Origin: Lytechinus variegatus
Taxonomy: Eukaryota > Echinodermata > Echinoidea > Temnopleuroida > Toxopneustidae
DNA: 64,000 nt
Reading direction: 5' to 3'
NCBI RefSeq assembly: GCF_018143015.1
Contig: NC_054746.1
Location: 33,197,129 to 33,261,128, forward strand
Positions 5,148 to 57,100 of this stretch are shown here, one piece after another. The notes under the pieces are model-generated. The model was not told the origin of the DNA, ran no database searches, and saw only the letters and a list, made by a program, of their open reading frames with translations. How positions within the stretch are numbered: the stretch's first letter is position 1; the number at the start of each line of letters is the position of its first letter. The position numbers were made by a program, and so were the translations under genes.

Positions 5148-5751
5148 CAGTGTTGTAGTCAAGGCTCAAACCTTCAAGGCCAAGGCCAAGGCCAAGGCTT
5201 TAATACCCAAGGCCAAGGCTTCAATAACCAAGGCTGAGGCCAAGGCATGGAAACCCAAGGCCAAGGCCAAGGCCTGAAAACCTCAAGGCCAAGGCCAAGG
5301 CATTTCAATTGTACAATACATGGAAAAAAAAAATTAGACAACAATGCTTAGGCGGCATACATGACACACAGGACCAATGTATAAAAGGTGTGAGCGAGCA
5401 AAATTTTTGACCCTTGTACATTTAAAACGAAAATAATTTCATGATAGATCATGTAGATTTAGACATAAAAACATTTAATTATTGTTCTAGGCGATTCACA
5501 TTGCAATAATTATTATTACCAAGGTGATCTGATCCTGGCATGCCCATTCTCAACATATGTCTTTCTCCTCTACCTGGTACAGGGGAGGCAGAATGTAATT
5601 TTTTTTGGGGGGGGGAGGTCAAAGCAAAAAATGCACTTACAATATAAGTCAAAATGAAAATTTTGGTGCAGTTCAGCAAAGCTTTTATAAGGGATTTCCA
5701 ATTGATAAGACAGATATTTTGATTTAGGCTTTAATTTCCCGCTATAGAAAG
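5148..5751. repeat. Left-end unit 1 of the hAT-type element
   Basis: This 604-bp unit starts with the terminal inverted repeat and CAAGGCC cluster and ends CCCGCTATAGAAAG. It has TTTAATTATTG where units 2 and 3 have TTTGATTATTG. Confidence 0.88.
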
Positions 5752-6354
5752 CAGTGTTGTAGTCAAGGCTCAAACCTTCAAGGCCAAGGCCAAGGCCAAG
5801 GCTTTAATACCCAAGGCCAAGGCTTCAATAACCAAGGCTGAGGCCAAGGCATGGAAACCCAAGGCCAAGGCCAAGGCCTGAAAACCTCAAGGCCAAGGCC
5901 AAGGCATTTCAATTGTACAATACATGGAAAAAAAAAATTAGACAACAATGCTTAGGCGGCATACATGACACACAGGACCAATGTATAAAAGGTGTGAGCG
6001 AGCAAAATTTTTGACCCTTGTACATTTAAAACGAAAATAATTTCATGATAGATCATGTAGATTTAGACATAAAAACATTTGATTATTGTTCTAGGCGATT
6101 CACATTGCAATAATTATTATTACCAAGGTGATCTGATCCTGGCATGCCCATTCTCAACATATGTCTTTCTCCTCTACCTGGTACAGGGGAGGCAGAATGT
6201 AATTTTTTTTTGGGGGGGAGGTCAAAGCAAAAAATGCACTTACAATATAAGTCAAAATGAAAATTTTGGTGCAGTTCAGCAAAGCTTTTATAAGGGATTT
6301 CCAATTGATAAGACAGATATTTTGATTTAGGCTTTAATTTCCCGCTATAGAAAG
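5752..6354. repeat. Left-end unit 2 of the hAT-type element
   Basis: This is a nearly identical 603-bp copy; differences from unit 1 are mainly in a T/G homopolymer. Confidence 0.88.
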
Positions 6355-6957
6355 CAGTGTTGTAGTCAAGGCTCAAACCTTCAAGGCCAAGGCCAAGGCC
6401 AAGGCTTTAATACCCAAGGCCAAGGCTTCAATAACCAAGGCTGAGGCCAAGGCATGGAAACCCAAGGCCAAGGCCAAGGCCTGAAAACCTCAAGGCCAAG
6501 GCCAAGGCATTTCAATTGTACAATACATGGAAAAAAAAAATTAGACAACAATGCTTAGGCGGCATACATGACACACAGGACCAATGTATAAAAGGTGTGA
6601 GCGAGCAAAATTTTTGACCCTTGTACATTTAAAACGAAAATAATTTCATGATAGATCATGTAGATTTAGACATAAAAACATTTGATTATTGTTCTAGGCG
6701 ATTCACATTGCAATAATTATTATTACCAAGGTGATCTGATCCTGGCATGCCCATTCTCAACATATGTCTTTCTCCTCTACCTGGTACAGGGGAGGCAGAA
6801 TGTAATTTTTTTTGGGGGGGGGAGGTCAAAGCAAAAAATGCACTTACAATATAAGTCAAAATGAAAATTTTGGTGCAGTTCAGCAAAGCTTTTATAAGGG
6901 ATTTCCAATTGATAAGACAGATATTTTGATTTAGGCTTTAATTTCCCGCTATAGAAA
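6355..6957. repeat. Left-end unit 3 of the hAT-type element
   Basis: This third near-identical copy leads directly into the element's unique interior at 6958. An open frame in this unit and its sisters is a repeat artefact. Confidence 0.88.
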
Positions 6958-7717
6958 GCATAGCGAGCAAGTGGTTTTGAAAAAAAAATCAATTTTGAAG
7001 TTGTAAAACTTGATTTTGGGTCAATTATGGTGCTAATCACTGTTAAAGGGCATCCTTGCGAGATGTTGTAATAAGATGTAATAAGAAATGAAATTTAAAT
7101 ATTTTGAGCTGTTTTTGTAATCATGAAAAAGGTGTGCATCTTACTAAACAAATTAACGCGAGCACAAAACACAAGCTGAAATTTTTACTGACCAGAAAAG
7201 GAAGCAGTTCTGGACTGCATTTAGTGACTCATAAATAGGATACATAACTTACCAATTAAATAATGCGAGCGCAAAGCGCGAGCTCAAAAATTTGTAATAT
7301 TTCGACCTAAAAACTAGACATTCTAAGCATTTTTTTGTGTAAATTGAATGCGAACCTTACTTAACAATAATTTATGCAAGCACAATCCAAAATTTGTTGA
7401 TTTTGAAACCTACAATTTTGCTCTGTATGCCATGCTTGGCCCCTCAAAATTTTTGGCTCATCATGCCATTGATGCCATAGCCCATTTGGAAATGACGAAA
7501 TTGAAGTTTGTGTTCAAGTTTACCGAATCTTTTCAGAATATCATTAAGACTTAAAACATTCTTGTTGGTCAAAGAAAATAATACAAGGAAAACCTAATGG
7601 AATAGAAATCAACCTTGTTATCATTCTTTAGAGTAAGCTATTTTTAAAGTATGAAAATTGTTGTCAAAATTGCAGTCAGATCTGTCAGAATTATTCCTGT
7701 CATAAAATCAGTATAAT

Positions 7718-18810: not shown

Positions 18811-21800
18811 CTAAAATCATCAAAAAACAAAGACAAAGTAATATTCAATGAAATGACAAACTGACCTAGAGCATGTAAAAGCAACAGCAGAAATTTAAAT
18901 GGCTTCTTTGATTTTATTCTGAAAATATCCCTTACACTCTAAATACTATTACCCAATATTTGGTAAAATGGGAACATGTATGCTTGCTGGGTGAATGGTA
19001 CCAAATACTTTGCAAATTCTACGCAATCCAATGTTTTCCCAATATGGGGGGGGGGGATAACACGGCAAACATGCCTGTTCCCTCTCTACCCAATATTGGG
19101 TAAACTTTTACTCAATCTTTTTGTTAGAGTGTATCATCCAAGAGTTAGTCATTGCCCTTAAAACAGCACATGATAATCATTCAGGGCCTTCCTCTCCTTG
19201 GATCACTCGACATGTCACACAGTTGCAAGTGTTTTCTCTATCCTCAGAGTAGTCATATCTCGGCAAGGTACTTTGCATCGTCATGTTCGGACACGACAGC
19301 TAGGAGGCCCATGCCCCCCCCCCCCTCCCTCATGCACTCTAAAAACAAATCAGTAAAAAATGACTGGTTAATAGGGTCAGCTGGGAGCAACTGTTATTCT
19401 AGTCATATTTGACTATTTTCTAGTCATATTTTACTAGAAAAGAGTTATTTCTGACTAGAATATATGTCAGAAATGTGAATATCAGTGATTGCCATATCAG
19501 TTGCTCCCAGCTGACTACTGGTCTAGTCAATTTGACTGATTTGTTTTAAGAGTGTGACCCATCATCATCCATGTCAGGTAATATTGGTCGTACATATAGG
19601 ATCCATGGTCCTACCATAATCTAGTCGTTTACCTCATTTTTACTTCAAAATTTTCGGTAAGAAAAAATCCACTTGCTGCGTCGCAGTGACAATGTTTGCC
19701 AACTGTCTGAAGAAGTTGCAGATTTCACCAAAGAGAGTGGCCAAGATATTTCATTTTTGTATCAAATTAAAATTCATGAGAAGGGGATATCTCTACAATC
19801 CCCCCCCCAAAAAAAAAAAAGCTAAAAAGTAATTTAATTGCATCTGATTGCTTCTATGATCTTTAGGAGCACACCTTTCAAGATATCAGGTAAACTTTTA
19901 ATCAAAAGAGAATGCCCGTAATTCGTAGTCTACCCGCAGGATACAAGGGGTGAAAAAGTAGAACATAATTATTGTGCATAAGATTTAGGCCTATCATGTA
20001 CGTGCTCTGATTACTGCTTTTATGAATATAATAAAAATCATTTTAAATTAAATACATTTTGACTTACGTGACATGCCGATGAATGCGACTCCCCACATGA
20101 TGGACCAGATCCAACCTACTAGAATAACTGTCAATACTAACTGGAGGAGACCTACGAACACATTGAGACACATCGTTCCACATTTACCCAATCCAGACTG
20201 CCCAGGGTTGCCACAGCAGAACACTGTAAATCCAGCAATGATAGTGCCTAAGAAAGTAAGAAGTGAGAAAAACAGAAAATGATAATTCTCCATATCATAT
20301 TGGACCTATAGCGTACCTATGTCATAAATCTTTTCGAATATCAAATTACACACAAAGAAAGGTTTTTGGCCGGGTCATTTTTTAAGGCAGGTGATCGGTG
20401 TTAATCTATCTTGATTGGGATGATAAAAAAAATCTCCATCTGGCGCACTAAGAATATTATTTTGGATATGTTCACTATAGACTTACGCCGTCAGGAGCGG
20501 CGTCGAGATAGGGGCAAGGCGACTATATAAAGCATGTAAGGTTCATACCTTTTCTCATTTGAATATTCGAGATACCACAAGAGTTACACGGCCCGAAACT
20601 TTCCCTTACTTCCCTCACTATAAAAATAAAAGGTTAAATCATTTAATATTTAAAAGGTTGAATGAGTGACAATCTTTTGTAAATGTTGCTTTTACCACTT
20701 TAAATGGTGCGACCCAACACTCGTCCTTCATTTTTCTCCCTCTTACAAATTGAAATATCATACACGGATATCACCTCCCCCCCCCTGCCACGTACTGCTA
20801 ACCTGAATGAAGCATTCAAGGTACATTTACACGAATCAAATTGCACTAAATCAGATATACATTACTGAATATATAATCACTTGCGAAGACGGACTGTCAT
20901 TGTATCATGACAAACCAATTTAAATATGCGATCATAGTAAATGAGCAGAATGGACGACCAAGAATGATTGAAATAATAACTTTTCTTATTATTCCTTCTT
21001 TCTAACGAAAGCAGACTCATTGCTGCGAAATTCTAGTTTATACCAGCTTTTAACCCAAACATCAACGATTAAGTCAGTATACGCGGGCTGAAATTACATC
21101 GTAGTCTAGTTTTTTTTTTATAGAAAATGAAACAGGTTAGGAATATGAAACAATAAGCGATTTTTTTTGTTTAGCTCATTTAGAGTGAACGAAACTGTAA
21201 TTGTAAGATTATGTAAATCATAATTACTCCGCCTCCTCTTACAAGAATATGTTGTTGGTCAATAATAGTTCGCTGTTGTTTCCATGGTTACCATGATTCA
21301 TATCCCGCAGTTTATTAAGGTTCTGGCTTCGGCAAGGTTATTACAGGTAGAGAGAAGAGAAGAAAGTGATGTGAGTAGTCACCGTGATTCATCATGAATT
21401 GAATTAAAATCTTAAAAGAAATTTAAAGTTCACCAAAATGAATAGAACATTATGAAAATCAGGTTTTGTTTATCAATGGCTTATTGTTGAAACTTTCGAG
21501 ATTTTCGGATCAGAGGCATGCACTGATCCATGATCATTGCTATAATTGACAATGCCAAGCAGACAAGTTCGATTTTGTTCTCGTATCCATGGCAACTCCG
21601 TTGACTCCTTCCTGGAATGAACCGCAGGGCTATAAGTGTCTCTGTCAAATAATGATTACAATATCATGTCGCAATAAAGTACTGTTGTATACGAATAGAT
21701 TACCGGACTTTGGGAACGGATGTTTTTTAGAGATGTGAAATAAATGAATTTGAATTTGACTTCATGTTGCACTATGGTGGAGGATTAGTTACTAAACATA

Positions 21801-23836
21801 CTATATATTCTAATTATTTTCATCGATTAAAGTGAGTTCGAAGTCAAATTGACAGGCTGTAGATCCAACTTTATAACAAATATCATTCATTAACATGTGT
21901 TCATCTGATACAGAGCCCTTGGGTGACATAAAACTTTAACTTGAACTTGATAAAAAAATCTATAACTCGTCCCCTCTTCTTATTAATCTTTCCGGAAACT
22001 TATAAATCGTAGATTTTATAGAGTATAATTTATGCCCGCTGAAATATAAACACTAATGAAACATTGTAAATAATATTTAAATACGGGTAAATCATAAGCT
22101 AATAAAAACTTAATCAGTGTTAGATTATATCTCTTGTCTTTTTAATTCAGAGAACAGGAACTCATCCATCAACGATCTCATAAAATGTCAGATAATACCC
22201 GGAATATATCTTACTTTTTTAATTTGTGTATTTCCCTCTTTATATGCGGGACCATTATTTGAAATAGCCTGATTAATGCTTTATCATGTTGAAAGATCTT
22301 TTGATGAATAAATATCAAGTAAATAAATGATAAATATAGTCTTTGAGAAAAGCATGTAATGAATGATTTCTGCTTTCTATTCAGGAAGATTTCTTTATCA
22401 TTGTACAGTAAATAATTAGAGGGGAACAATGGCGGACCCCCCCCCCCTTTTTTTTTTAAAGTTTGTTTATGGAATGGAAACCCTTATTTTGAAAAAAAAA
22501 ACATTTTGCTAAATAACCCTCAGCAATCCTGGATCCGCCACTAGATGGGAACGTTGTGTCATAAAGACGCATTATTTTCGTATAAATCGCGTAATACCAA
22601 GAATGTATTTATAATTCTGTTTACAGATTGTCCGGCGTTCCTGTATTTGTTCTTTCTATTCAAGTTGACTTCATCAAACTACACACCCTTTGATCAGGTA
22701 ATATGCCTGTACACAGCATGCACTTGAACGCTTCAATCATGGATATATGCTTCAATGCATGCTATAATACACCAACAGGACGGTTTGTCACTTTGTTGTT
22801 CGTCCAATCAACCCAATTTCCGTTATTGAAACGACATGTAGTTGACATGATCAGACCTGTTATGAAGGCAACAGCATATACGCGAAGGGTATGAAAACAT
22901 AAGTGTCACATATAAATACCCATTTGCTTTAACTGATGAGTTTATAGGCCTATGAGATCAACATAATAACTGTTTTCGTTGCGTCTAACTATAGACCTGT
23001 CTAAAGAGTCATTATGGATCCGGAGGGGCGGATCCGGGATTTCAAAATTGCAGGGGCACGAGTTGCTATATTTTGTTTATGCAGAGTTTTCATTGAAAAA
23101 CATTTTTTTTTTAATTAAAAAATATCAACTTGAAACAATCCACATGTCCCCTGTCGGTATGCGTACAAGGAACCATGTACTATTCCAGTTTCTCCCATTA
23201 TATTCATTCAGGGTTGGGGTATTTTCAGAACCCTTATATAGGACTCGGAGCGCGCGTGGCTTAGGTTCAACTTTGTTTGTTCAGGTGTACTTAGCTCCCG
23301 AAAAATGACGCTAAATGTATTATGAAAAAAGTCTAACATTCACTAATATGAATATTATTCTTCTGCAAAAATATATTTGATGCGTGGGCCGATGTACAAA
23401 CATTGATGATCCGAAAGAGCGAGTGGGCCTTCATACTTGATGAGCATGATGAGAGCCACTGATATTTGCTATGCAATTGTAAACAAATAAAGACCCGGAT
23501 AAAGACCCAGTATAGTATGAATATAGGCATACCGGGATACCGACTTAAAAATGCAGGCTGTGGGGTCCGGTGTGGGTGCATACTCAATCCATAAAAATTA
23601 ATTGAATTGCAATATATATCATTATGAGCAATATGCTGGTAGAGTTAAATCGTATATCACATCTTACCTAAACCAGGAGCGAAAATATTGAAGATGAGAC
23701 AGAACACAGCCATAACCATAGGCATGGCAGGGATCGCAGCCCGACAGGCATTGCCTTCTTTCTTGTGTATTACCACCGAAGTCTGGACAGCGGGTTGGGT
23801 CGGTGCTAAAACAACCGTCGTTTGTTGTTGTGCCAT
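18386..23836 (-). CDS. SPEC3/Stum-family two-pass membrane protein, paralogue A (3 exons)
   Basis: The coding sequence joins 23836-23668, 20247-20068 and 18810-18386, giving 257 codons plus stop. Every junction has GT/AG and intron phases are 1 and 1. The ATG at 23836 has G at -3 and +4. The protein has a short Gln/Thr/Val-rich N-terminus, then the family signature NACRAAIP (residues 29-36). A first hydrophobic segment spans about 38-66, including PGLGT and the GF-VFCC-NPGQS block. A second membrane segment spans about 84-113 and ends in VGWIW. A cytosolic-type Pro/Gln/Tyr-rich tail follows, with tandem QGYAPPPQ units and a PPPY motif near the end. The family includes sea urchin SPEC3, linked to ectodermal cilia, and Drosophila Stum, linked to mechanosensing. 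Membrane location and family are well supported; the exact role here is inferred. It lies in tandem with a sister gene at 27814-32442. No clear poly(A) signal was found close to the stop. Confidence 0.88.
18934..19133. mobile_element. Small inverted-repeat element (ACACTCTAA ends)
   Basis: About 200 bp starting ACACTCTAA and ending TTAGAGTGTA, with inner inverted copies of TACCCAATATTGGGTAAA-like sequence. It lies in intron 2 of SPEC3-like A. Confidence 0.6.
19335..19556. mobile_element. Small inverted-repeat element (CACTCTAAAAACAAATCAGT ends)
   Basis: Left CACTCTAAAAACAAATCAGT and right ACTGATTTGTTTTAAGAGTG pair with each other. Inner GTCAGCTGGGAGCAACTG and CAGTTGCTCCCAGCTGAC pair again, giving a long hairpin. 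It lies in intron 2 of SPEC3-like A and resembles the element at 18934. Confidence 0.68.
20068..20247 (-). CDS. SPEC3-like A, exon 2
   Basis: This 180-nt exon lies between a TTTCTTAG acceptor and a GTAAGT donor. It encodes the VFCC-NPGQS block and the second membrane segment ending VGWIW...GMS. Its length and phases match exon 2 of the neighbouring paralogue exactly. Confidence 0.9.
20248..23667. other. Intron 1 of SPEC3-like A
   Basis: AT-rich intron with a MITE-like element at 22427-22543 and a degraded transposon end near 23018-23040 (GGAGGGGCGGATCCGGG). No extra coding exon was recognised. Confidence 0.65.
22427..22543. mobile_element. Short hAT-like MITE
   Basis: The ends are CAATGGCGGACC and GGATCCGCCACTA. 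The flanking 8 bp are GAGGGGAA and GATGGGAA, one mismatch. The interior is mostly homopolymer C, T and A. Confidence 0.55.
23668..23836 (-). CDS. SPEC3-like A, exon 1
   Basis: This 169-nt coding exon starts at MAQQQ and ends in phase 1 before a GTAAG donor at 23667. It encodes the N-terminal tail, the NACRAAIP signature and the start of the first membrane segment up to PGL. An upstream in-frame TTG is not a credible start. Confidence 0.87.
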
Positions 23837-24365
23837 CACTTTAATATGGTACAAAAATATACACTGCCACAGTCACAACATTGGCGGGCCTATATGTCAA
23901 CCGGTGTTTGTTGCGACACAGTCGTAGATGTTCAGTTATCAGACGTACACGGTACGATGCTATAATACAGACGTAAATGCAGACGACATACAGTTCATGC
24001 AAGGCCGAACTGAGCGTTTATTATTGTTGATCGTTATGATACACGATCACTTTACAGTCTGCTGTCACGGTCGTGAATGTATATGCAAGTACAACGCAAT
24101 ACCGGTACATATTGCCGAGTTAGTTTTATGGTAAAAATGCATATAGTTATCGAAGATTCGGGGTTTTGTTTGGAGCTCAGTTGAAATCGATTAAACGGCG
24201 CTAGAAACTTTACATTTTGAGACAGTTATAATCTAAATTCTTTGGACAAATTCGCAACAGTTGAAACATTCAAAGTGCGGAAAACGGACGTTTAATTCAG
24301 GGGCTGCGGGGCCTTCTCATGGAGGGGGGGGGGGGGCTTAAAACCAACATGATATTGAGCTTCAC
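23837..24365. other. Upstream region of SPEC3-like A
   Basis: This stretch would hold the 5' UTR and promoter of the gene on the minus strand. No convincing TATA box or upstream exon could be assigned. Confidence 0.4.
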
Positions 24366-28064: not shown

Positions 28065-28831
28065 CTGTGACATAATAATTCAACACATTTATGAATTAAC
28101 GCAAATGTACCAAATTATAAACATCGTACAAAGGCATGGGGAACATTGTGATTACATAATAATTTCTATTTAAAAATAGGCCTATAATTCAAAATATGGA
28201 TAACTTTATAATCATTGAAAAAAAATACCTGAAACTGGCCAAACAAATTTTGAATGAAAGCTATATTCTGGCTAAGCAATTAAGATTTAGTGATAGATTT
28301 TCACAAGAAATGTAAATATTGTATTCAAACGTTGGCTTATATTTTCACTATCAAATACACCTCAACGGTTATCACAATTACATTATGATATATGCATAAT
28401 TATATTTTTTATAATAATAATGAAAGTGGGTTAATGAAGAGCGCTCACGACGACTGTCAGATATGACACTCCTGCAGACACTCCGCAATTATTGCAATCT
28501 TTAGCAAAGCTGCAAAGGGCCCTTTTGATTGGCAAAATGCCTATATAGCTCTAACGTTTAATATGTAACGATGTGTGTGTATATTCAAGTGAGTTTACCT
28601 GACATAGCAACCATGATAGTACCCCAGATGATAGCCCATATCCATCCGACGATGAACAAAGTGAGGAACAATTGAAGGATTCCAACCCAGAAGTTCAGGC
28701 AGAAGGTACCCACCTTACCCCCATCACTCTGGCCAGGGTTGGCGCAGCAGAAGACCGCGAAACCAGCCACAATAGTCCCTGTATATATAAATTAAGAAAG
28801 AGATATGAAAATTAAGAAGGGATAAGGTTGT

Positions 28832-31800: not shown

Positions 31801-32442
31801 GCTGAGGAATGTGTTGGTAATTTTTGGCACCACCCTTGAAAATCATCAGTATGAGATGAAGAATAATTGTGCCAGGTTTCATGCTCGTAGCATTTTCTGA
31901 ACAAAAGTCGTCGCCTGGACTTTACGGTCTTTAATAATTATGATCAAAGGGGAAGGTCTACCCATAAAAAGCATGCATGTATGTAAACATTTTTACTCGC
32001 TATTTATTTCATGGAACAAAAAACTTACGTAAAAAAAAAAGATTTTATCCACTTGCTCTGACGGTCTGATTATCAGATGGCGATGATGAATTTCACTTGG
32101 CCAATACTGTTAATCTGGTCTAATTTTTAGGTCAAATTCACAGATTTGAAAATGAAAAAAACACTAGAAAATGGACTAATGCACTTCGTGCGGTCTGGTC
32201 TTTGTATACGGTTCCAATGACGACATTAGGTAGAACTTATTAGAGAGAAAATATATACAGAGAATATTTTACTTACCAATTCCAGGGAAAATGATATTTA
32301 TAATCAAGCATGTAACGGATAGGGCGATGTGCATGGACGGTATGGCAGCACGACAAGCATTGGGTTCCCTGGTGTTTTGATGAACAACTACTGTCTGGGG
32401 TTGCGCGGGCGCCACCACGACTGTTGGATTGTTACTCGTCAT
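27814..32442 (-). CDS. SPEC3/Stum-family two-pass membrane protein, paralogue B (3 exons)
   Basis: The coding sequence joins 32442-32277, 28778-28599 and 28064-27814, giving 198 codons plus stop. All introns are GT-AG with phases 1 and 1, as in paralogue A. The start at MTSNNP has A at -3; the frame stays open upstream, but homology with A supports this ATG. The protein carries NACRAAIP (residues 28-35), a first hydrophobic segment reaching PGIGT, an AGFAVFCC-NPGQS block, a second membrane segment with VGWIW, and a Pro/Gln/Gly/Tyr-rich tail ending in a PPSY motif. The tail is about 57 residues shorter than in A and lacks the perfect octapeptide repeats. The role is inferred from family members tied to cilia or mechanosensory membranes. 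AATAAA-type signals on this strand occur about 350-390 bp past the stop (27463-27468 and 27426-27431), but their use is unproven. Confidence 0.88.
28599..28778 (-). CDS. SPEC3-like B, exon 2
   Basis: This 180-nt exon has a TATATACAG acceptor and a GTAAAC donor. It encodes VFCC-NPGQS and the second membrane segment with VGWIW, collinear with exon 2 of paralogue A. Confidence 0.9.
28833..28862. repeat. (CT)n microsatellite
   Basis: About 15 uninterrupted CT units in intron 1 of SPEC3-like B. Confidence 0.95.
29236..29340. repeat. Dispersed repeat with TATATAGCGCTTA and AAGCGCTTTACAG
   Basis: The two GCGCTT-containing blocks are followed by ATTATTACCCCGGTCATCGG and TGCATGCCCGC. The latter half resembles part of the triplicated hAT unit (TTATTACCAAGGTGATCTGA...GGCATGCCC), so both derive from a common dispersed repeat. 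Confidence 0.6.
29540..29640. repeat. Dispersed repeat fragment shared with 56435-56535
   Basis: GGTAACGAT, then an AGATGAGTT/AAATGAGTT block, ACAGAAT and an AAGTGT block occur in the same order and spacing at both places. Copies are diverged. Confidence 0.45.
32277..32442 (-). CDS. SPEC3-like B, exon 1
   Basis: This 166-nt coding exon ends in phase 1 before a GTAAGT donor at 32276. It encodes a Val/Gln-rich N-terminus, NACRAAIP and the first half of membrane segment 1 up to PGI. Confidence 0.86.
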
Positions 32443-33849
32443 CTTGATATAAATTGACCAGAAATTCAGAGCGAATTCACAAAATATGAAATGAGAATTA
32501 AAACCCAAGTGAAGCGAAAGAAATGTATATACGGAACGATATCTGTTGACGAGACGGTAAAGGTATACTGCACATGCAAATCCTCCCGGAGAGCAGTGTA
32601 AGAGGTTTTGGCAAAGACAGGGTTGAGAATGAAATGAATGATGTTGATTCGATATAAATAGACATGAGAAATTGGGAAAATATTTACCAAGGTACATGAT
32701 GGCTCAAGTTCAAAGGATAGGTAAATAGAGAGTTATGGAGAGAAATCGAGTGTGAGAGTGAGGATTAGAGGGTGTGAGATAGAGGGAGAGATGTGGAAAA
32801 AATAATAAGTTGAGTTATGTGTAGGAGAAAAGGAGGGGGGAAGACTTTGTAGGCAAGTCCCGGAGGCAAGTACCTGTTTATAGAAATGGATATTACAGAG
32901 GAATTGGGAAAGATGAAAATAAAAAAAGAGACATCATGTAAAAATATGAAAGTATTCAAACTCCGAAATCTGTCAAATAGTAGATGAATAAATGAGAATT
33001 AACTATCTTTTGATGTTGTTGTTCTTTCCCCGTTTTCCCCTTCTCTTCTTTTTCTTTTCACTGCTTCAAAAATGGCAAGTGGCTGTTGCCCCTCCTGTAC
33101 TCCCTGAGGTGCGATCCCCTTTCTCCTTTTGACCCAAATAATAGATACTTCTTTCTCATGGACAATAATTTTATTGGGAAAGTTATCTAGAAATTTTGAT
33201 TTCGGACATGACAGCATTATATAAGAATTCCGGTCACAAGACAATGAATAATGGAGAGGCAATCTGTTGAAAACGGTGGTTTGAGTCGAGCTAAATGTCG
33301 CCACAATGGGATACACATTTTTCTCGCAGAAGTCTTATTTTATCATACAGTTGATAACGCAGAGAGTTTGATGAATCTTACAGGCTCGCGGTTTCATTTA
33401 GGAGAATAAAAACAAAAAGGCCTAGAAATGACACAATTAAACATCCGATCTTATCATTGAATTCGACTATTTTTCCAGCGATGTACCAAAAGACAATGAC
33501 GCTGGATTCGGTTTCAAGATGATCTTTGTGAGATACCTTTCTTATGCACGTCAAAATTATTATTCAAAATATTCTTTCTCAATGATCCTTTAAGACTGCT
33601 CTTTAAAAAATCACTCTCTAGTTTGAAAAAGCTAAAAATGATTTAAAGCTATTTAAAATCTAAAAACAATAGAATACCACACGAAAAATACATTACAATA
33701 CCGTGATATAAGTTTTAAAATACTTTTATTTTAATGATTCATAGAGATCGATAATCATTTTACATTCCACGAAAGACGAAGCAGGGTGTCTATATCTATA
33801 TTTTACATACGTCAGATAAAAGAAATTTATATTTTCACTGTGCATAGAT
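32443..33849. other. Upstream region of SPEC3-like B
   Basis: It includes the putative promoter and 5' UTR of the minus-strand gene, plus purine-rich sequence at 32700-32860. A 105-codon minus-strand frame at 33316-32999 has no recognisable domain and is not called. Confidence 0.45.
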
Positions 33850-43214: not shown

Positions 43215-45996
43215 CCCTAAAAAGACTGGGGGGGGCTGATTCAGTCCCCCCCTCGACATTTTTCGCGATAACTCTGCCGTGCGAAATTTTTTGACCGCGT
43301 CGCTCGCTGACTTTTTATTTTTAAGTCTTGCGCAACTTTTGAGATAAAAATTGTGCCCCCCCCCCGGGTACGCGGCTCCGAAATTACGCAACATTTTGTA
43401 AGTGCATGCAGACCCAAAATTACTCAAAAACGTTAATTTGTGTACAAATCCAATGCAAATAGTGTTTTTAGCCAAAATTCATAAATGTATCATTATTTTT
43501 CCTTTTACTGCTTAAAATCGATTAATTTTATATTTTTTGTGGTCAAAATAAAGTACCTGACAATTTCCATTGAAAAAACAATAAAAAACAAAAAGTCGAA
43601 AAACACAGAAATACATAAGAAATTTAGAAAACAATAGAATACATAAGAAAATAAATGTGATATTGAAATTTTTTAAAAATCAATTTGATCAGATGCCTAT
43701 CTAGAGTAGGTAAAACAAAAATTAGCATTTCAGGGGCATTATTTTATTAATTAGAGCAAACTTATGATTTTACGCATAAATTAGCATAATTAATGAGACA
43801 TGAGATTTTTTGCAGAATTTGATGTTATAGTTTTGTAGATAATGTCATGGGTAATGCGTGTGCCAATTTTCGTCGCGATCGCGCGATCGACGGCCGAGAT
43901 CATAAGGGGGGGGGGAGTATGGAAGCAGGAGACCGTCAAAAACACGGATATACGTCGTGTCGTAATTCAATTTACTACACGACGTAAATAATTACGTAGT
44001 GTAGTAATTCGAATTACTACACGACGTAAATAATTACGTAGTGTAGTAATTCGAATTACTACACGACGCAATTCCGAATTACTGCCCAACGATTTAATGT
44101 CATGACGTTAAATGAATTAGTGTCGCTACATCAAATAATTAAGGTCGTGTAGTAATTCGAATTACTACACGACGTAAATAATTACGTAGTGTAGTAATTC
44201 CAATTACTACACTACCTAAAGAATTACGTCGTGTAGTAAATAATTACTACACGACGTAATTCCGAATTACTGCTCAACGATTTAACGTCATGACGTTAAA
44301 TGAATTAGTGTAGTGACGTTAAATCAACCAATGAGACCGTTCGTTATATGAGCGCAATGCGAAGAGCTGAGACTACAGAGTATTGTACAGGAACGTACCG
44401 GCAGGAAGTTAGTTGGATGTCCTGACTAATCTCTTGGTGCCGCCAGTGGATAGAGTAAAAAAAAACAAGGAGAGAGAGATTACATAATAGGAGAGAGAGA
44501 AGCGAAAGGGGGAGATTGGAAAGAAAAGAAGGGGGAACGGGAGAGAAAGAGAAGGGAAGTTAGTTGGATGTTCGATATTCGATATTCAAACTGTGAAGTT
44601 GGTTTGATATTCAGGTTCGATATGCAAACGCCTGTGAAGCTGGACCATTTTTTTTTTGTGTGAAATCGCCATTTTGTTTCCGCTCAAGCGCGATCGCATC
44701 AATTGTATAGGTGTATACCCATCGTGTTCATGATTACAAAAAGTGCTTAGAACGTCCAGATATCAAAGCTCTTCGGCTCGTGAGATATCATCTTCATGGA
44801 CCAATTAATTATGCAAACTGCTAGTCCTTAACAGGTCCCTTTTCAAGTCACTGATTAGAGACTACATTTAAAATAAAATTTAGCTTGCGCCCCACGCTCT
44901 GTTTTTTAAAAAAATGTGTGTCACCCTCCCCCTGGCCCCAAAATGTTACTTTGTCTCCTCCTAGGTTAAAAACCTTGGTGCCGTCACATGCCACGGACCC
45001 GATCAGCATAGCACTGCCCCCCCCCCAAAAAAAAAAGTTCTACAACCGAGAATAGCAAATGATAATAGGAAAGAAAGGAAAGAAAGATGAAAGATACGTC
45101 ATTTTATGCATACCATGTCAAAATCAATCTCAAAGTTAAAGTTTTTTTCTCTCGCTGGCTCGAGACTTATTATTAAGCAAATTTTTGCTGCATGCGCCAT
45201 CATGTGCCCCCTCTTTTTGTTCTTATAACGCACTGAGCTTGGGGCTTCGCCCTATTGCTCGGGGCACAATCATAAAACATCCTGTTCATACAATGATATG
45301 ACCCCTCCGTTCTCCCTTCTCTTTCTCTCCCGTTCCCCCTCCTTTTCTTTCCAATCTCCCCCTTTCGCTTCTCTCTCTCCTTGTTTTTTTTTTACTCTAT
45401 CCACTGGCGGCACCAAGAGATTAGTCAGGACATCCAACTAACTTCCTGCCGGTACGTTCCTGTACAATACTCTGTAGTCTCAGCTCTTCGCATTGCGCTC
45501 ATATAACGAACGGTCTCATTGGTTGATTTAACGTCACTACACTAATTCATTTAACGTCATGACGTTAAATCGTTGAGCAGTAATTCGGAATTACGTCGTG
45601 TAGTAATTATTTACTACACGACGTAATTATTTAGGTAGTGTAGTAATTGGAATTACTACACTACGTAATTATTTACGTCGTGTAGTAATTCGAATTACTA
45701 CACGACCTTAATTATTTGATGTAGCGACACTAATTCATTTAACGTCATGACATTAAATCGTTGGGCAGTAATTCGGAATTGCGTCGTGTAGTAATTCGAA
45801 TTACTACACTACGTAATTATTTACGTCGTGTAGTAATTCGAATTGCTACACTACGTAATTATTTACGTCCTGTAGTAAATTGAATTACGACACGACGTAT
45901 ATCCGTGTTTTTGACGGTCTCCTGCTTCCATAGGGGAGGGGGCTGAATCAGCCCCCCAGTCTTCTTAGGCATCGAAATAGCCCAGTCTATTTAGGG
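43215..45996. mobile_element. piggyBac-like TTAA element with a 0.64-kb-arm palindrome
   Basis: Flanked by TTAA (43211-43214 and 45997-46000). The ends CCCTAAAAAGACTGGG and CCCAGTCTATTTAGGG are inverted repeats; the CCCT start and TTAA target fit piggyBac-type elements. Just inside, G-rich hairpins (GGGGCTGATTCAGTCCCC type) lie at both ends. No transposase frame was recognised. Removing the element leaves one TTAA and re-opens the LINE frame across the junction (NLQSLKDGLEDADWSEAF), which confirms both boundaries. Confidence 0.82.
43918..45932. repeat. Large inverted repeat inside the TTAA element
   Basis: Arms 43918-44557 and 45313-45932 are near-perfect inverse copies. The outer half of each arm is a chain of smaller palindromes built from GTAGTAATTCGAATTACTAC and ACGACGTAAATAATTACG. 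The ~755-bp spacer contains unrelated repeat-like DNA. Confidence 0.88.
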
Positions 45997-48038: not shown

Positions 48039-48138
48039 TTAATGTTTATCAGGTTTTCTCGCGAGTCTTACAAAGGCAGGCATTTTAGACTTCACCATGG
48101 TGACATCGGGTTCTTCGGCGCCAAGAATGGACATAATG
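48039..48138 (-). CDS. Methyltransferase last exon
   Basis: This 100-nt exon follows a (CT)n tract and a TTTACAG acceptor, and ends in TAA at 48039-48041. In phase 2 it reads SIMSILGAEEPDVTMVKSK and ends VRLARKPDKH. This fits the final beta strand (usually LLGRK-like) of the family. It lies about 7.2 kb from the preceding exon; the intron holds three large repeats. An AATAAA-type motif on this strand occurs at 47798-47803. Confidence 0.75.
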
Positions 48139-51100
48139 CTGTAAAGAGAGAGAGAGAGATCTGCTGAGGGATGTTTCACAAAGAGCTAAGTATGACTTAA
48201 GAGTCACTCTTAAAGTTCAAGTCCACCTGAGAAAAATGTTGATTTGAATCAATAGAGAAAAACTGACAAGCACAATGGTAAAAATTTCATCAAAATCGGA
48301 TGTAAAATAAGAATGTTATGACATTTCAAAGTTTTGCTTACTTTAACAAAATACTTATATGAACGAGCCAGTTACATCCAAATGAGAGAGTTGATGATGT
48401 CACTCACTCACTATTTCTTTGTTTTTATTGCTTGAATTATACAATATTTCATTTTTTACGAATTTGACGATTAGGACCTCCTTGCCTGAAGCACAAAATG
48501 TTAAAATAATTGAATTCCACGTGTTCAGGAAGGAATGAAATTTCATTTCACATGACAATGACGAGAAAATAAAAATATTTCATATAATAAAATACAAAGT
48601 AAATAGTGAGTGAGTGATGTCATCAGTTCCTCATTTGCATACCGATCGAGATGTGCATATAACTGTTTTTGTGAAATACAGCGAAACTTGAAAATGCCAT
48701 AACTTTCTTATTTTACATCCGATTTTGATGAAATTTTCAGTATTATGCTTGCCGGAACATTGAATTTTTCTCTTTTTATTCAAATCAAGTTTTTATGGGG
48801 TGGACTTGTCCTTTAAATGCCTAGATGGATGCGGTATAAAAGACATCATCGCATTGGACAGATAATGCCGAGAGCCTAGAGGACGCACCCTACTGCGTAT
48901 TAATACCCCCATCTCACTAGATGGCGATTCCGCTCCGATCGTCAAAAATCGACAAAGCGTGGTATATCGTAGCTTGAACGTGGCTTGATCTTTTCAATCT
49001 TCTCCGTCGTACCTTGATCTTTTCTGAAGCGGCAAGGATCGCCACCATCTTCCTGGTCGCCACTAAATTTTGAACATGTTCAAAACTTAGGCCCCCATCT
49101 CACTAGGATGGCGATCATGGCGACCATGGCGATCTGTCTAAATCCCGCAAATCGTAGCAGAATCGTCCTCGAATTCTATTTTTAGCCTGCGAGTCGATTG
49201 CACTACAACTTCACTGCGACGGACCTGCGCTGAAGGCGATGGTAATACGCTGGTAGTACGACGCTGTCACTCTCTTGCCACGATTTGAGGCAGATGTGAT
49301 GCGCTGCTTCTGCGATCAAAGCGACCGTACAACGAGGCCCATACGCTAATTAGGACCTCGGTACGGTGGTGCTACGAATGGAACGATTGTGTTACGTTCA
49401 TGATGGGCTCTTGAAACGATTTCAAGCAATCGGCATATTGATCGCGGCACATGAGACATTTTTCAGTCGATCGCCAACCTCCGACCAAGATGGATGTCCA
49501 AAATTTGGTTGGACTTATACATCTTAGCATTATACAACAACTTCAATTAGAAGTTGAATACGAGGACCTGATACGAGGACAGTAGAAGGAGGAGGCCAAA
49601 AAGATACTGGGTCCGATCCTGGCTGTCACTTAAGTCATAATATACAATATATATTAAAATTTCACTCAAAAGATGTCGATGAGCCTAATAGTTAATATGA
49701 GGAATGCATCCATAATTTCATAAAAGAGCATAAAAATGTTTTATATTTTGTTCATTTTTTTCCACAAAAGTTTGTCACTCGAAATTGTTAGGTAAATTCC
49801 TTTCAAATTTGCTTTCAAGAAGTACATGTAGTCTACTGATGTGAGAGCACTCATAAGGGGGGGGGGGGCACAATGCCAGAATCCCCATAAAGTGTGCTTT
49901 CCCAATCAATACATCAGTGATCGAATCATTAAAATTTTAATATTGTTTACTGTCACTGTAGTTAGAATTCATTCTATTTTTAAAACATATTCAATTTATA
50001 TATTTTTGCGGAGGTAACCCATTTCGTCATCAAGACATGCGAGCGTCTTTTTCTTCTCTCTTTCAAGCTGGCTCAGCAGTTAGATTTTCATCCTCCTACT
50101 ATACCTCCTCCTCCTCTTCCTCTTCCTCCTCCTCTTCCTCCTCTACCACCACCATAACCTCTTGTTCGCTTCCTCTTGGACCGCCGGCATAACAGATTGG
50201 GCAGCTTCCCTTTTTGGTCCTTTTTCTGGGAAGTATATTTGAAAACGTCGTGGTGTCGCCTCGTAATCTGTTGAAAATGTGATAATCCGCTACCATCGGC
50301 ACGTTGTTTCATAGCAGCGCAGACGGTCGCTGCTCAATCGCTGGCCAGTCATCAGCGGCGCAGCAAAAGCGCAACGCGAATGCCTGCAGCGGGCTGAGAA
50401 CGTGTGCCACATGCCACCCAAAGGGAAAGCGTCGTGGTGGAAACGGTGTGAAGCGTGTCGAGCGCAAGGCAGTCGCCTCGTAAACGGAAGCAGCGTAGCA
50501 GAATTGTCTTGGGAACGGGCCTGAAAGACACGGGCGATCGGTGCCGCTTTTAATGCGCTTCTACTACGCTTTGTGCGTTGAAGCTTCGTTACAGCTACGA
50601 ATATGTCGTTTGTAATACGCTCTTGACTCGATTATGATGCGCTTTAGCACCTCCGCGATCTCGCTACGTAAGTTTTGAACATGTTCAAAATTTTGTGGCG
50701 ACCAGGAAGATGGTGGCGATCCTTGCCGCTTCAGAAAAGATCAAGGTACGACGGAGAAGATTGAAAAGATCAAGCCACGTTCAAGCTACGATATACCACG
50801 CTTTGTCGATTTTTGACGATCGCAGCGGAATCGCCATCTAGTGAGATGGGGGTATTACGTAGCGAGATCGCGGAGGTGCTAAAGCGCATCATAATCGAGT
50901 CAAGAGCGTATTACAAACGACATATTCGTAGCTGTAACGAAGCTCCAACGCACAAAGCGTAGTAGAAGCGCATTAAAAGCGGCACCGATCGCCCGTGTTT
51001 TTCAGGCCCGTTCCCAAGACAATTCTGCTACGCTGCTTCCGTTTACGAGGCGACTGCCTTGCGCTCGACACGCTTCACACCGTTTCCACCACGACGCTTT

Positions 51101-54100
51101 CCCTTTGGGTGGCATGTGGCACACGTTCTCAGCCCGCTGCAGGCATTCGCGTTGCGCTTTTGCTGCGCCGCTGATGACTGGCCAGCGATTGAGCAGCGAC
51201 CGTCTGCGCTGCTATGAAACAACGTGCCGATGGTAGCGGATTATCACATTTTCAACAGATTACGAGGCGACACCACGACGTTTTCAAATATACTTCCCAG
51301 AAAAAGGACCAAAAAGGGAAGCTGCCCAATCTGTTATGCCGGCGGTCCAAGAGGAAGCGAACAAGAGGTTATGGTGGTGGTAGAGGAGGAGGAGGAAGAG
51401 GAGGAGGAGGTATAGTAGGAGGATGAAAATCTAACTGCTGAGCCAGCTTGAAAGAGAGAAAAAAAAGACGCTCGCATGTCTTGATGACGAAATGGGTTAC
51501 CTCCGCAAAAATATATAAATTGAATATGTTTTAAAAATAGAATGAATTCTAACTACAGTGACAGTAAACAATATTAAAATTTTAATGATTCGATCACTGA
51601 TGTATTGATTGGGAAAGCACACTTTATGGGGATTCTGGCATTGTGCCCCCCCCCCCCTTATGAGTGCTCTCACATCAGTAGACTACTTCTTGAAAGCAAA
51701 TTTGAAAGGAATTTACCTAACAATTTTGAGTGACAAACTTTTGTGGAAAAAAAATAAACAAAATATAAAACGTTTTATGCTCTTTTATGAAATTCTGGAT
51801 GCATCCCTCATATTAACTATTAGGCTCATCGACATCTTTTGAGTGAAATTTTAATATATATTGTATATTATGACTTAAGTGACAGCCAGGATCGGACCCA
51901 GTATCTTTTTGGCCTCCTCCTTCTACTGTCCTCGTATCAGGTCCTCGTATTCAACTTCTAATTGAAGTTGTTGTATAATGCTAAGATGTATAAGTCCAAC
52001 CAAATTCTGGACATCCATCTTGGTCGGAGGTTGGCAATCGACTGAAAAATGTCTCATGTGCCGCGATCAATATGCCGATTGCTTGAAATCGTTTCAAGAG
52101 CCCATCATGAACGTAACACAATCGTTCCATTCGTAGCACCACCGTACCGAGGTCCATACGCGAATTAGGACCTCGTTGTACGGTCGTTTTGTTCGCAGAA
52201 GCAGCGCATCACATCTGCCTCAAATCGTGGCAAGAGAGTGGCAGCGTCGTACTACCAGCGTATTACCATCGCCTTCAGCGCAGGTCCGTCGCAGTGAAGT
52301 TGTAGTGCAATCGCCTCGCAGGCTAAAAATAGAATTCGAGGACGATTCTGCTACGCTTTGCGGGATTTAGACAGATCGCCATGGTCGCCATGATCGCCAT
52401 CCTAGTGAGATGGGGGCCTTAACTGATCAGATTTAGTTCGCGTTTCATATCGTGAAGGCGTCAGCATGAAGGTGCGACTCTAGAATTATTATAGGTCATA
52501 CCTAAATCTTTGTGAAACACACCCGATCATTATGTTATCAAACTCATGTGAATACAAAATATTGCTCCTGCAAGGCCGAGCGTTACAGGTACTCATAAGT
52601 GAATGTTTAAGATATTCGTTATTTCATTTTTGCCTTAGGCCCTGTTACAACCGATAATGTCGCACCAACGCATAATGTCGCAGCAACGCATAATGTCGCA
52701 GATTGCGACATTATGCCAAGAGCGTCCGACGCATAATGTCGCAGTCAACGCATAATGTCGTAGTTTTTCTAACGCATAATGTCACATGTCGCAACGCATA
52801 ATGTCGCAGCAAATCGTCAACGCATAATGTCACATGTCGCAAACGCATAATGTCACAGCAGTATTTTCTTCAGGACTCGAGCTTCAGATAAGATATAAAA
52901 CATGCTTTTACTTAGTATTTTGAGGCACGAAAAAGAGAATTAAATTATTTTGAAATCAAGATTACTCTTTGTATGAATATTTGTCGCTTTATTGCCATTT
53001 CGTCTACTGCCTTTTCCCCACTTTCACAGGGTCTGATATCATTTCGTCCAACAGTAGTTAGTCAACTATCAACATAGTCCTATAACCATTTCGTCTACCA
53101 TCTCGTCTAATAGCCAGTTGGTCTAATAGCCGTTGTGTTTATTATCATTTAGTCTAATTGTATTTTTTTCAGTTGGTCCAATATCCATTTTGTCCAATAT
53201 CATTACGTCTATTACCTTTTGGTCTAATAGCCAATTGGTCTAATAACCACTTGGTGTACTCTCATTTTCGCCCATGTTCCATTTGGTCTAAATTCAGTTG
53301 GTTCGCTATGACTTTGTCTCAGCCCATTTCGGCTAACAATCATTTGGTATCGTTGCCATGGGTCCAATCACCATTAGGTCCTATCACCGGTTCTAGGACA
53401 ATTACCCCCGGACAATCACCCTTCCGGACAACTACCCCTGACAATTTTACCCGCCCGAGGACAATTACCCCCTGAGGACAATTACCCCCCGAGGACAATT
53501 ACACCCCGGACAATTACCCCCGGAAAATTACCCCCCAAAAAATTATCCCCGAGAACAATTTCCCCTCAGACAATTACCCCCTGGACAATTACCCCCTAGA
53601 CAATTACCCCCTAGACAATTACTCCCGGACAATTACCCCCTGTAAAACTAGCCCCGAGGACGATTACCCCCTGAGGACAATTACCCCCCCAGACAACTAC
53701 CCCCTAGGACACTTTCCCCCGGACAATACGCCCTGGACAATTACCCCCGGACAATTACCTCCCGATGACAATTACCCCCGGACAACTACCCCCGGACAAT
53801 TACCCCTTAGGAAAATTCCCCCCCCCCGAGGACAATTACCACCGGGAACAATTACCCTGCCCCGGGGACAATAAGCCCCTAGACAAAGGGAGTGCACAGA
53901 GTCAGGGCCTAAATAGTAAAATTACAAGGCGTTCTTGTGTATATTATCTTTGCATATTTTTTTTGCTTACTGTATTAAAACTAAAGCCACATCTTAATCT
54001 GGAATGTGCACCGATTGTTTCATAATTCTTAGCTTCTTGTTAGATGAATTGTTTTATAATAACAGGTTTATAGGTTCTTCTTGTCAGTAGTATTGATGGT

Positions 54101-57100
54101 TGCGTTACCGAGCTTTGAAGGTGTCTACCTGTGAAGGTGTCTTTTTAACGTTTTATCTATTTTCCTGAAATTAAACCCCAAATGAATAAAGAAAAAATCA
54201 GATCAGTTGGAATCAGAGAAATTAGGCATTTGTGATTATTATGTCTAATCGTGTCTTCTCATGAATGTTCAATTGTTCTATGAAAACTTATTATGTGGGC
54301 CAGTTTACACATTTTTGATGTACATATGCGTAGCTATATAGCGCAAGCCCCCACCGCCATTTTTCATGATGCAGAAGGCATTGCTAAACAAAAAAAAGAA
54401 GAAAAAAGGCGGAAAAGGAAGAAAAAATGAAAAAGAAGAAAACGAGAGAGAGGGAGAGAGAAAAAAAAGGAGAAAGAGCGATATAAGAGAGAAAGTTATT
54501 AACATAAGATAAAGTAGAAATATATTGAAAACCTGTGCCACCGACCAAGACCGTTACAATGGTTCACGCCCGGGGGGGGGGGCACTCAGTATATAATAAT
54601 TTGCCGCGGAGGGGACCCCCATTTTTACACTCAATATCCGTTCCAAGGCATAGCATCTTTGTCTTATTGAGAAAAAGAACAAAGAAAGCCGCTCCAAAGC
54701 AAAGCAATTTCTTCTTATCGAGAAAAAAGAAGAAAGAAATCCGCTCCAAAGCTTGTCATATTTTTTGTTACGCCGTTCCGGTCGCACTGATCTGCTACAA
54801 TGAGCTGCAATTTTGGTGAAATGCGGCCGCAGAGCGCTGTCCGACCTTCACCTCTGCGCGAGCGCACCCGGCGGACGTGCCGCCGGGCTAGCTCCATCAT
54901 GCACGCATGTCCGTTCCACAGGGATGCATAAGCACTGACACGCTGGCGATCCGTTCCTAGGACCCCGTTTTTTGTCTCGCCCGCGGCACACCCCAACCAC
55001 TTTTTTGGTCGAGTGCTCCCTTCCCCCCCCCGGGGGTCACGCTTGATTCGATGTGACATTATGCGTTGACGATTTGTTGCGACATTATGCGTTAGAAAAA
55101 CTACGACATAATGCGTTGACTGCGACATTATGCGTTGCTGCGACATTATCGGTTGTAACAGGCCCTACGTTTTTCCTCACACAAAAAATTACTTTCACAA
55201 TGATATTGAAATGACACATTTCGTTTTGCCTCCATCCCCTCCATAAAAAAATACCTAAGTGCAGCTCCCGCACTTCTGCCGGATTTGCCCGCTTACCTCT
55301 GTTTAAAGTCAGTAAAATATGAAGTTCCTGGGTTGTCCTTTATGAATTCAACAGCAACGGCATAAGTTTTAATACACTCAATATAATCCGTAATCGAGAT
55401 ATCATATTGCAATTCTACGTTAACGCTGAAAGATAAAACATAAGAAATAAACAGTAACATTGTTGCTGTTGATAGAATAAAGATATTAAACAAAAATGTT
55501 AAATAGCCTGTTGAAGTTGATCGACAATAACCCACTAAATTAAATTTTAACGAATATAATGTACGAGCTTTAAAGAATAATGATGAAATAAGGTGATTTG
55601 GGTATATAGTTCACTCTAACTTGAGATGTGCACTTTGTGTGATATTGGTGAATTGTATACGCAAGCAGTCTGTAAAACGTGGTGCCAATAGTCAGATCGC
55701 AGGACTGGTCCCTGTGCTATTGAGCAAATAGGCCAGATTAATCCAAATCATCCCATAGCTGAATCCTTCTCCCTACAAAATCTCGAGATTCATGAGATTT
55801 TATTTCTCGTAGAATTTACCTACGTTAACCACAAGTCAAATTAAATATCAATGCACCATGAGATATATTATCTATTTATTTTGTATACAATATTTTGATA
55901 AAGAAGAGAATTTCTGGCCTGAAAATGTGCCTAAAAACTGAATTTTCTTCCTCTGTTTTCTTTTGTAAAAAACTTTTAGGGCTGTGGGCTGAGCATAAGA
56001 TATGCAAAGTCCGATCATCCCAGGAGGGGTTCACTGCCAGTAGACACTAAAACAGACGAAGGTGCTGGTAACTCCTTGAACAGACGAGTCAGTATTATCA
56101 TGATTATGTACGGCCAAAAATACCCGGAACAAGTTGGAATGGTTTTTCAACACTTTTTGGTACTATTTGAGCCAAGGAATTACATAATATACATTTACCA
56201 AAATCCCCGTCTGCAGATCTGGGAAAGTGGTTATTTTTAAGATGGCGTCCAATATTGCTGCCATTCACTGAAAATGAATACAACTCACTCATTATCCACC
56301 CTAGAATCCTATTTCGGTTCATATTCCATGGCCTAAAGGTTAAAATAATTTGTTGATACAGCTTAGAGTGAGTGAATATAGGCTGCCGTGGGCTAAAAAT
56401 CCACAATTCATCTATTACTTAATTAAAGGTAAATGCTAGTTTTGGTAACGATATCAAAATGAGTTCGTACAGAATCCAATGAAATGACCACCAAAGTGTC
56501 TGTTTGTATTAATAAAACGCATGTGCCAAAGAATTCTGGAAGAAATTTTGTAATTGCTGAGAAATCAGCAAATAAGCGCAGGAATCGGGTAGGGCGTCGG
56601 GCCCGACGCCCTAAGCAATAATCATACATTGTCCCACGTGCGCTTATCTGTGTTGGGGATCTCCGGTGTGAACATTTTTCAGCGTAGATTTCAAGATTTC
56701 ACAAAGTTCAGTTAATGTAACTGTACCAGATCTAGATCCTCGATGATATACTGACAATTAAGCCTTGTTTTACAGACTTTCTCATGAAATCAGTGTTTAC
56801 TGCAACTACTGGAATTTCTTTTTAAGTGGCGTTATATTGGTTTCTATTCAAGTTACAAGGACAGTCAGTGGTCTAGTGGGTCCAAAATTTCAAGATGGCT
56901 TCAAAAATGGAGTTTAAAATGGTTTTTATATACTTAAAATGGGCAAAGCTCACTTCAAATCCACATGGGAGTTATGATCTGGGTGTCTAGACCGTGGTTT
57001 CAGTGGTCAAAATACATTATTGGGACAAGTTACAAGGACTGTCAGTGGTCCAATATGTTTTTTTTTAATGGAGTCTAAAATCGCTGTTGCTACTTAAAAA

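Follow-up and report, generated by a model that had tools for sequence, protein, structure and literature searches.

Interlocked inverted repeats in an intron of Lytechinus variegatus explained by a young non-autonomous transposon nested in its own copy

The interlocked inverted repeats found in an intron of the sea urchin Lytechinus variegatus are almost certainly the product of two copies of the same transposon, one of which inserted, in inverted orientation, into the other. They lie within the window, the stretch of 64,000 nucleotides that was analyzed (C7:33197129-33261128, in a genome of 869.6 Mb and 33 contigs). The event is clearly real, well explained and ordinary, namely a young non-autonomous transposon nested in its own copy. 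The nesting shows in the presence of both family ends on each of two units, the TTA repeat around the inner unit, the uninterrupted target that is visible in the inner copy, the dispersed single copies and the empty relative of the outer site; evidence against it was not found. In this way, a strange-looking interlocked palindrome becomes a readable two-step history.

Self-comparison of the window confirmed the interleaved inverted repeat reported in a first-pass annotation of this DNA, with arms that are 97-99% identical and with outer limits exactly at 48904 and 52418. The interleaving stood, but the order of the segments did not: instead of A-B-A'-B' it is B-A-B'-A', with the short arm first. 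The short arms, B (48901-49089) and B' (50669-50857), are 98.9% identical over 189 bp (BLAST E = 1e-92) and the long arms, A (49089-50671) and A' (50855-52419), are 97.2% identical over 1,586 columns (BLAST E = 0), so that chance is excluded for both pairs. The TTAA that was said to bound the whole structure is indeed present on both sides (Table 1). The terminus CCCCCATCTCACTAG is common to all segments as had been noted, but not located at every segment edge: the window has exactly four occurrences (at 48906 and 49092 on the plus strand, and at 50838 and 52402 on the minus strand), one per segment and at the outward end thereof. The pseudoknot-like appearance follows from the off-centre placement of a full inverted copy within another copy.

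Table 1. Features of the nested pair and of the flanking exons (positions within the window)
Feature	Position	Strand	Evidence
TTAA, left edge of outer copy (target sequence)	48900..48903	.	empty paralogous site (L081) with a single TTAA
Left part of outer copy (segment B) with left end TACCCCCATCTCACTAG; final 3 bases TTA	48904..49089	+	
TTA, left target-site duplication of inner copy	49087..49089	.	
Inner copy (segments A and B') of 1,765 bp with both ends, inverted relative to outer copy	49090..50854	-	
TAA (TTA on minus strand), uninterrupted equivalent in inner copy of the site hit in outer copy	50669..50671	.	junction alignment
TTA, right target-site duplication of inner copy	50855..50857	.	
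Right part of outer copy (segment A') with right end ...GATGGGGGCC	50858..52418	+	
TTAA, right edge of outer copy	52419..52422	.	
28-bp hairpin, inverted in outer copy only	52148..52175	.	1 of 38 readable copies (41 in total)
Same 28-bp hairpin in inner copy, orientation usual for the family	49333..49360	.	
Last coding exon, methyltransferase	48042..48140	-	tblastn with P0121, 33/33 residues identical
Preceding exon, methyltransferase	55299..55424	-	95% identity over 42 residues; donor CAGAG/GTAAGC

When the inner copy and one TTA are taken out, an outer copy of 1,747 bp remains. The two copies can be aligned over their full lengths, with 1,722 matches, 22 mismatches and 6 indels, including one of 12 bp and one of 6 bp. 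Four of the substitutions and two of the indels fall within a single 28-bp micro-inversion. The removal of one TTA restores the outer junction without a gap, and the restored sequence is the same as the site that is present once and uninterrupted within the inner copy itself, over 25 bases before and 40 bases after the join; a single difference lies just before those 25 bases. The history was then almost certainly as follows. A cut-and-paste DNA transposon of around 1.75 kb, non-autonomous and with ends TACCCCCATCTCACTAG... (left) and ...CTAGTGAGATGGGGGCC (right), entered an intronic TTAA. Later, a second copy of the family entered the first in the opposite orientation, at the TTA at positions 184-186 of the latter, and duplicated that TTA. 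The outcome is segment B, the reverse complement of B plus A', and then A', which reads as B-A-B'-A', and an allele without the inner copy would be expected to carry TTTTGAACATGTTCAAAACTTACGTAGCGAG at the junction.

A genome search with 48904-50600 as the query yielded 318 candidates, and the best 40 were scored. Among these the element was recovered, besides the window, at no fewer than 39 dispersed places, which were taken with around 250 bp of flanking sequence (more in two cases). Segment A was followed by B' in one unit in 38 of them, the exception being L031 (C1:32535893), which has no B end. All 39 were colinear with the inner copy at 98.1-99.2% identity and 34 had both ends complete (incomplete were L028, L031, L039, L047 and L053); L040 has an internal deletion of around 240 bp. 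The B' end alone gave 182 candidates, where all 40 that were scored matched at 100% and 22 of these (window included) spanned all 189 bases; the one extra place that was read, L080, proved to be a full copy. At L057, a nearly full copy is accompanied, at a distance of 51 bp, by a right-end fragment with the same orientation. Further copies of the element thus exist at 39 or more other places, as dispersed single units, and together with the family ends and the target duplications they support the origin by transposition that had been suggested.

The same inventory bears on the view, implied by the first-pass annotation, that the structure is one unit with interleaved arms. A single foldback element of this kind, mobile as a whole like TU or Galileo, would have long inverted arms and the TTAA on both outer sides, as the locus does. 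Yet none of the 39 other places listed had the arrangement B-A-B'-A', all being single units, and the single unit carries terminal repeats of only around 25 bp, which are imperfect. We therefore regard a foldback unit as extremely unlikely.

The two copies of the nested pair appear to have arrived separately. Compared with the consensus of the family, 14 bases are derived in the inner copy and 16 in the outer one, 10 of these 16 lying in the micro-inversion in the family alignment. Only one of the 29 derived bases in total is shared, and that one is present in 7 of 41 copies (the 39, the inner and the outer one). Given that the inner and outer copy have no private variant in common, they represent two separate insertions, and neither gene conversion between the arms nor an assembly fold, both of which had been proposed, agrees with these data. 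In the family alignment the distance between inner and outer copy is 1.60%, against a family mean of 1.37%; the 28 mismatches behind the former stem partly from the misaligned micro-inversion and the pairwise alignment gives 22. Both copies have closer relatives elsewhere (the partner ranks 30 and 19 of 40), which, like the lack of shared private variants, disfavours a local duplication. The 28-bp hairpin represents a micro-inversion between short inverted repeats, observed for the outer copy alone.

Long and highly identical inverted arms are the typical look of fold artefacts, and the locus has such arms. Nevertheless, a folded (palindromic) read joining both strands of one element, in the library or the assembly, would yield X-X' and not B-A-B'-A'. 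Moreover, the copies differ by the 22 substitutions and 6 indels given above, the remaining derived bases, 13 inner and 15 outer, are unshared (10 of the 15 being in the micro-inversion), there is an exact TTA repeat at the junction and the ends of each copy match those of the dispersed copies, all of which leaves an artefact with a negligible probability. We attach equally little weight to a rearrangement that derived the second copy from the first by inversion, by break repair or through the insertion of a circular form: the circular permutation of an inverted element would also produce B'A', but the inner copy is bounded exactly by the family ends with TTA on either side, and it has no private variant in common with the outer copy. 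The nesting of two independent insertions is also fairly recent, in line with the initial reading, as the 41 best-scoring copies diverge by 0.11-1.22% from their consensus. Because the compared copies were the best-scoring candidates, older copies may exist and the true spread is wider.

To describe the target site, we collected 36 copies with both ends, 34 from the genome plus the inner and outer copy of the window, and read their flanks in the orientation of the element. Matching 3-bp flanks were found for 26 of them (14 TAA/TAA and 12 TTA/TTA), whereas five copies had TAA/TTA, two TTA/TAA and three (L040, L051 and L057) flanks that did not fit. An equal 4 bp on both sides was observed for the outer window copy only, in the form of TTAA. 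The elements piggyBac and Kolobok have TTAA as their target, and the outer copy resembles them in this respect; however, with TTAA on both sides in 1 of 36 copies and matching 3-bp TWA flanks in 26, a duplication of the piggyBac/Kolobok type was rejected for the family. A search with the joined outer flanks recovered an uninterrupted relative of the outer site on contig C15 (L081), 99% identical and with TTAA once, so that an empty TTAA site, as looked for on the basis of the initial reading, does exist. Since this empty relative has TTAA once, the duplication of the outer copy is either TTAA, or TAA with an extra T, and not the result of a changed middle base.

The copies with mixed TTA/TAA flanks make up 7 of the 33 that have TWA on both sides (L023, L030, L035, L036, L038, L058 and the window copy 48904-52418). 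Mixed flanks are far more frequent than point mutation would give: with 0.8% change at the middle base, one in three being A-T, the probability of 7 or more among 33 is 5e-10. For piggyBac, carry-over of the donor flank is known. A similar process, in which the transposon carries its old 3-nt flank as an overhang and the mismatch in the middle is settled after insertion, would be a rather doubtful explanation here. Full carry-over would lead to around a quarter of mixed copies, considering that TTA and TAA are about equally common, and the observed fraction is 21% (95% interval 9-39%). Against it stands the empty site of the outer copy, which points to a duplicated TTAA of 4 bp or to an additional T. 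In addition, 45 of 46 insertions of mPing flanked by TCA had TTA or TAA (PMC4561436), which also counts against carry-over. The mixed-flank copies may help to understand the cutting and joining steps of Harbinger-type elements.

The TWA duplications and the short terminal repeats are consistent with a PIF/Harbinger-like element that is non-autonomous. As described in PMC4482050, the PIF/Harbinger pattern consists of insertion at TWA with duplication of these 3 bp, and of short inverted ends, of which the first base is usually A or G. In the present family a 3-bp TWA duplication is found as matching flanks in 26 of the 36 copies (7 being mixed and 3 not fitting), and the ends form imperfect repeats of around 25 bp, where the right one starts with G when read inward and the left one with T. 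The latter, as well as the outer duplication of TTAA instead of a clean 3 bp, speaks against the label. Autonomous members of the superfamily encode a DDE transposase and a Myb/SANT protein. The longest ORF of the element (112-113 amino acids in both copies) had no Pfam match at E 0.01, implying that it is at most a non-autonomous member, which most likely was moved in trans; a transposase of the PIF/Harbinger type is the probable agent. The corresponding domain, DDE_Tnp_4, is common in the genome, with at least 150 loci (150 scored of 458 candidates). Among 20 of these 150 that were read with flanks of 1.5 kb, a length that is possibly too short, none showed the terminus within 2 mismatches, and a BLAST comparison of the family consensus with the same loci gave just four matches of 15-23 bp (best E 0.008); these results, like the missing Pfam match, count against the label. 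As none of the 20 loci carries the terminus, the name PIF/Harbinger is one that we infer. Around a fifth of the DDE_Tnp_4 places listed (32 of 150) had an open frame of 340 amino acids with near-equal scores (112.9-117.4 bits), which is suggestive of a recently amplified Harbinger-type family.

Some comparisons with known systems can be made. Plant MITEs include nested or multimeric insertions, with one family member inside another. The locus is alike in that a family member lies within a family member, and it is the one complete nested pair: no other was seen at the 39 other places listed, where L057 has a partial neighbour. Foldback elements include TU of sea urchin. The long inverted arms at the locus resemble those of TU, Galileo (PMC4168063) and Tetris (PMC4079207); here, however, the arms derive from two copies and are not the terminal repeats of one element, the repeats within a single mobile unit being the short ones mentioned above. 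Non-autonomous PIF/Harbinger elements (Tourist-like, e.g. mPing) share with the family the 3-bp TTA/TAA duplications (PMC4482050), the short terminal inverted repeats and the many near-identical dispersed copies. The differences are the size of the element (~1.75 kb), the left end, which starts with TAC and not with A or G, and the mixed flanks. A description of the element was not encountered in the titles and abstract openings of literature on foldback and Harbinger elements, sea urchins and self-insertion. Searches with the letters of the terminus in papers, with the longer terminus and with the internal palindrome in viral contigs and in Rfam at gathering thresholds returned no match; the bare 15-mer recurred in 12 stretches of viral contigs, none of which continued as the element over the next 20 bases. 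What emerges is a young and well-defined transposon family of a sea urchin, for which the ends, the target and an empty site are at hand.

The location inside a methyltransferase gene was borne out. The protein that the exons match best, P0121, is a putative methyltransferase of Lytechinus variegatus; its first 36 residues excluded, it maps in pieces to the minus strand at 63094-62936, 62236-62006, 60705-60610, 55424-55299 and 48140-48042. Since the last two pieces enclose the nested pair, it is located in the last intron. Judged from base pairing, transcription of the intron from either strand would yield an RNA in which A and A' form complementary arms of around 1.57 kb with a 183-base loop, consisting mostly of B', with which B might pair only in part. 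The inverted pair could therefore, in principle, give an RNA duplex of around 1.5 kb from the intron, as the first-pass annotation had also envisaged.

Several other repeats and frames were observed in the window. The same intron holds a degenerate tandem array of 14-15-bp units (GGACAATTACCCCC) at 53392-53886 and further arrays with units of 16 and of 18-23 bp at 53096-53376 and 52654-52861. A tandem repeat with a spacing of around 604 bp occurs at 5148-6960 (99.6% identity between 5148-6356 and 5752-6960), surrounded by degenerate arrays of 26 bp that are located between 637 and 13185. The arms of an inverted repeat at 43918-45932 (640 bp, 96% identical) contain tandem units of 42 bp of the GTAGTAATTC type. 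For a reverse transcriptase frame in the window, the 120 matches listed carried no informative names. Finally, the ORF at 32272-32703 (minus strand) matched Spec3 just under the curated cut-off (26 versus 27 bits, E 1.3e-5), and the frames at 20048-20305, 23657-23872 and 28585-28791 are similar to it by eye, which suggests a gene cluster.
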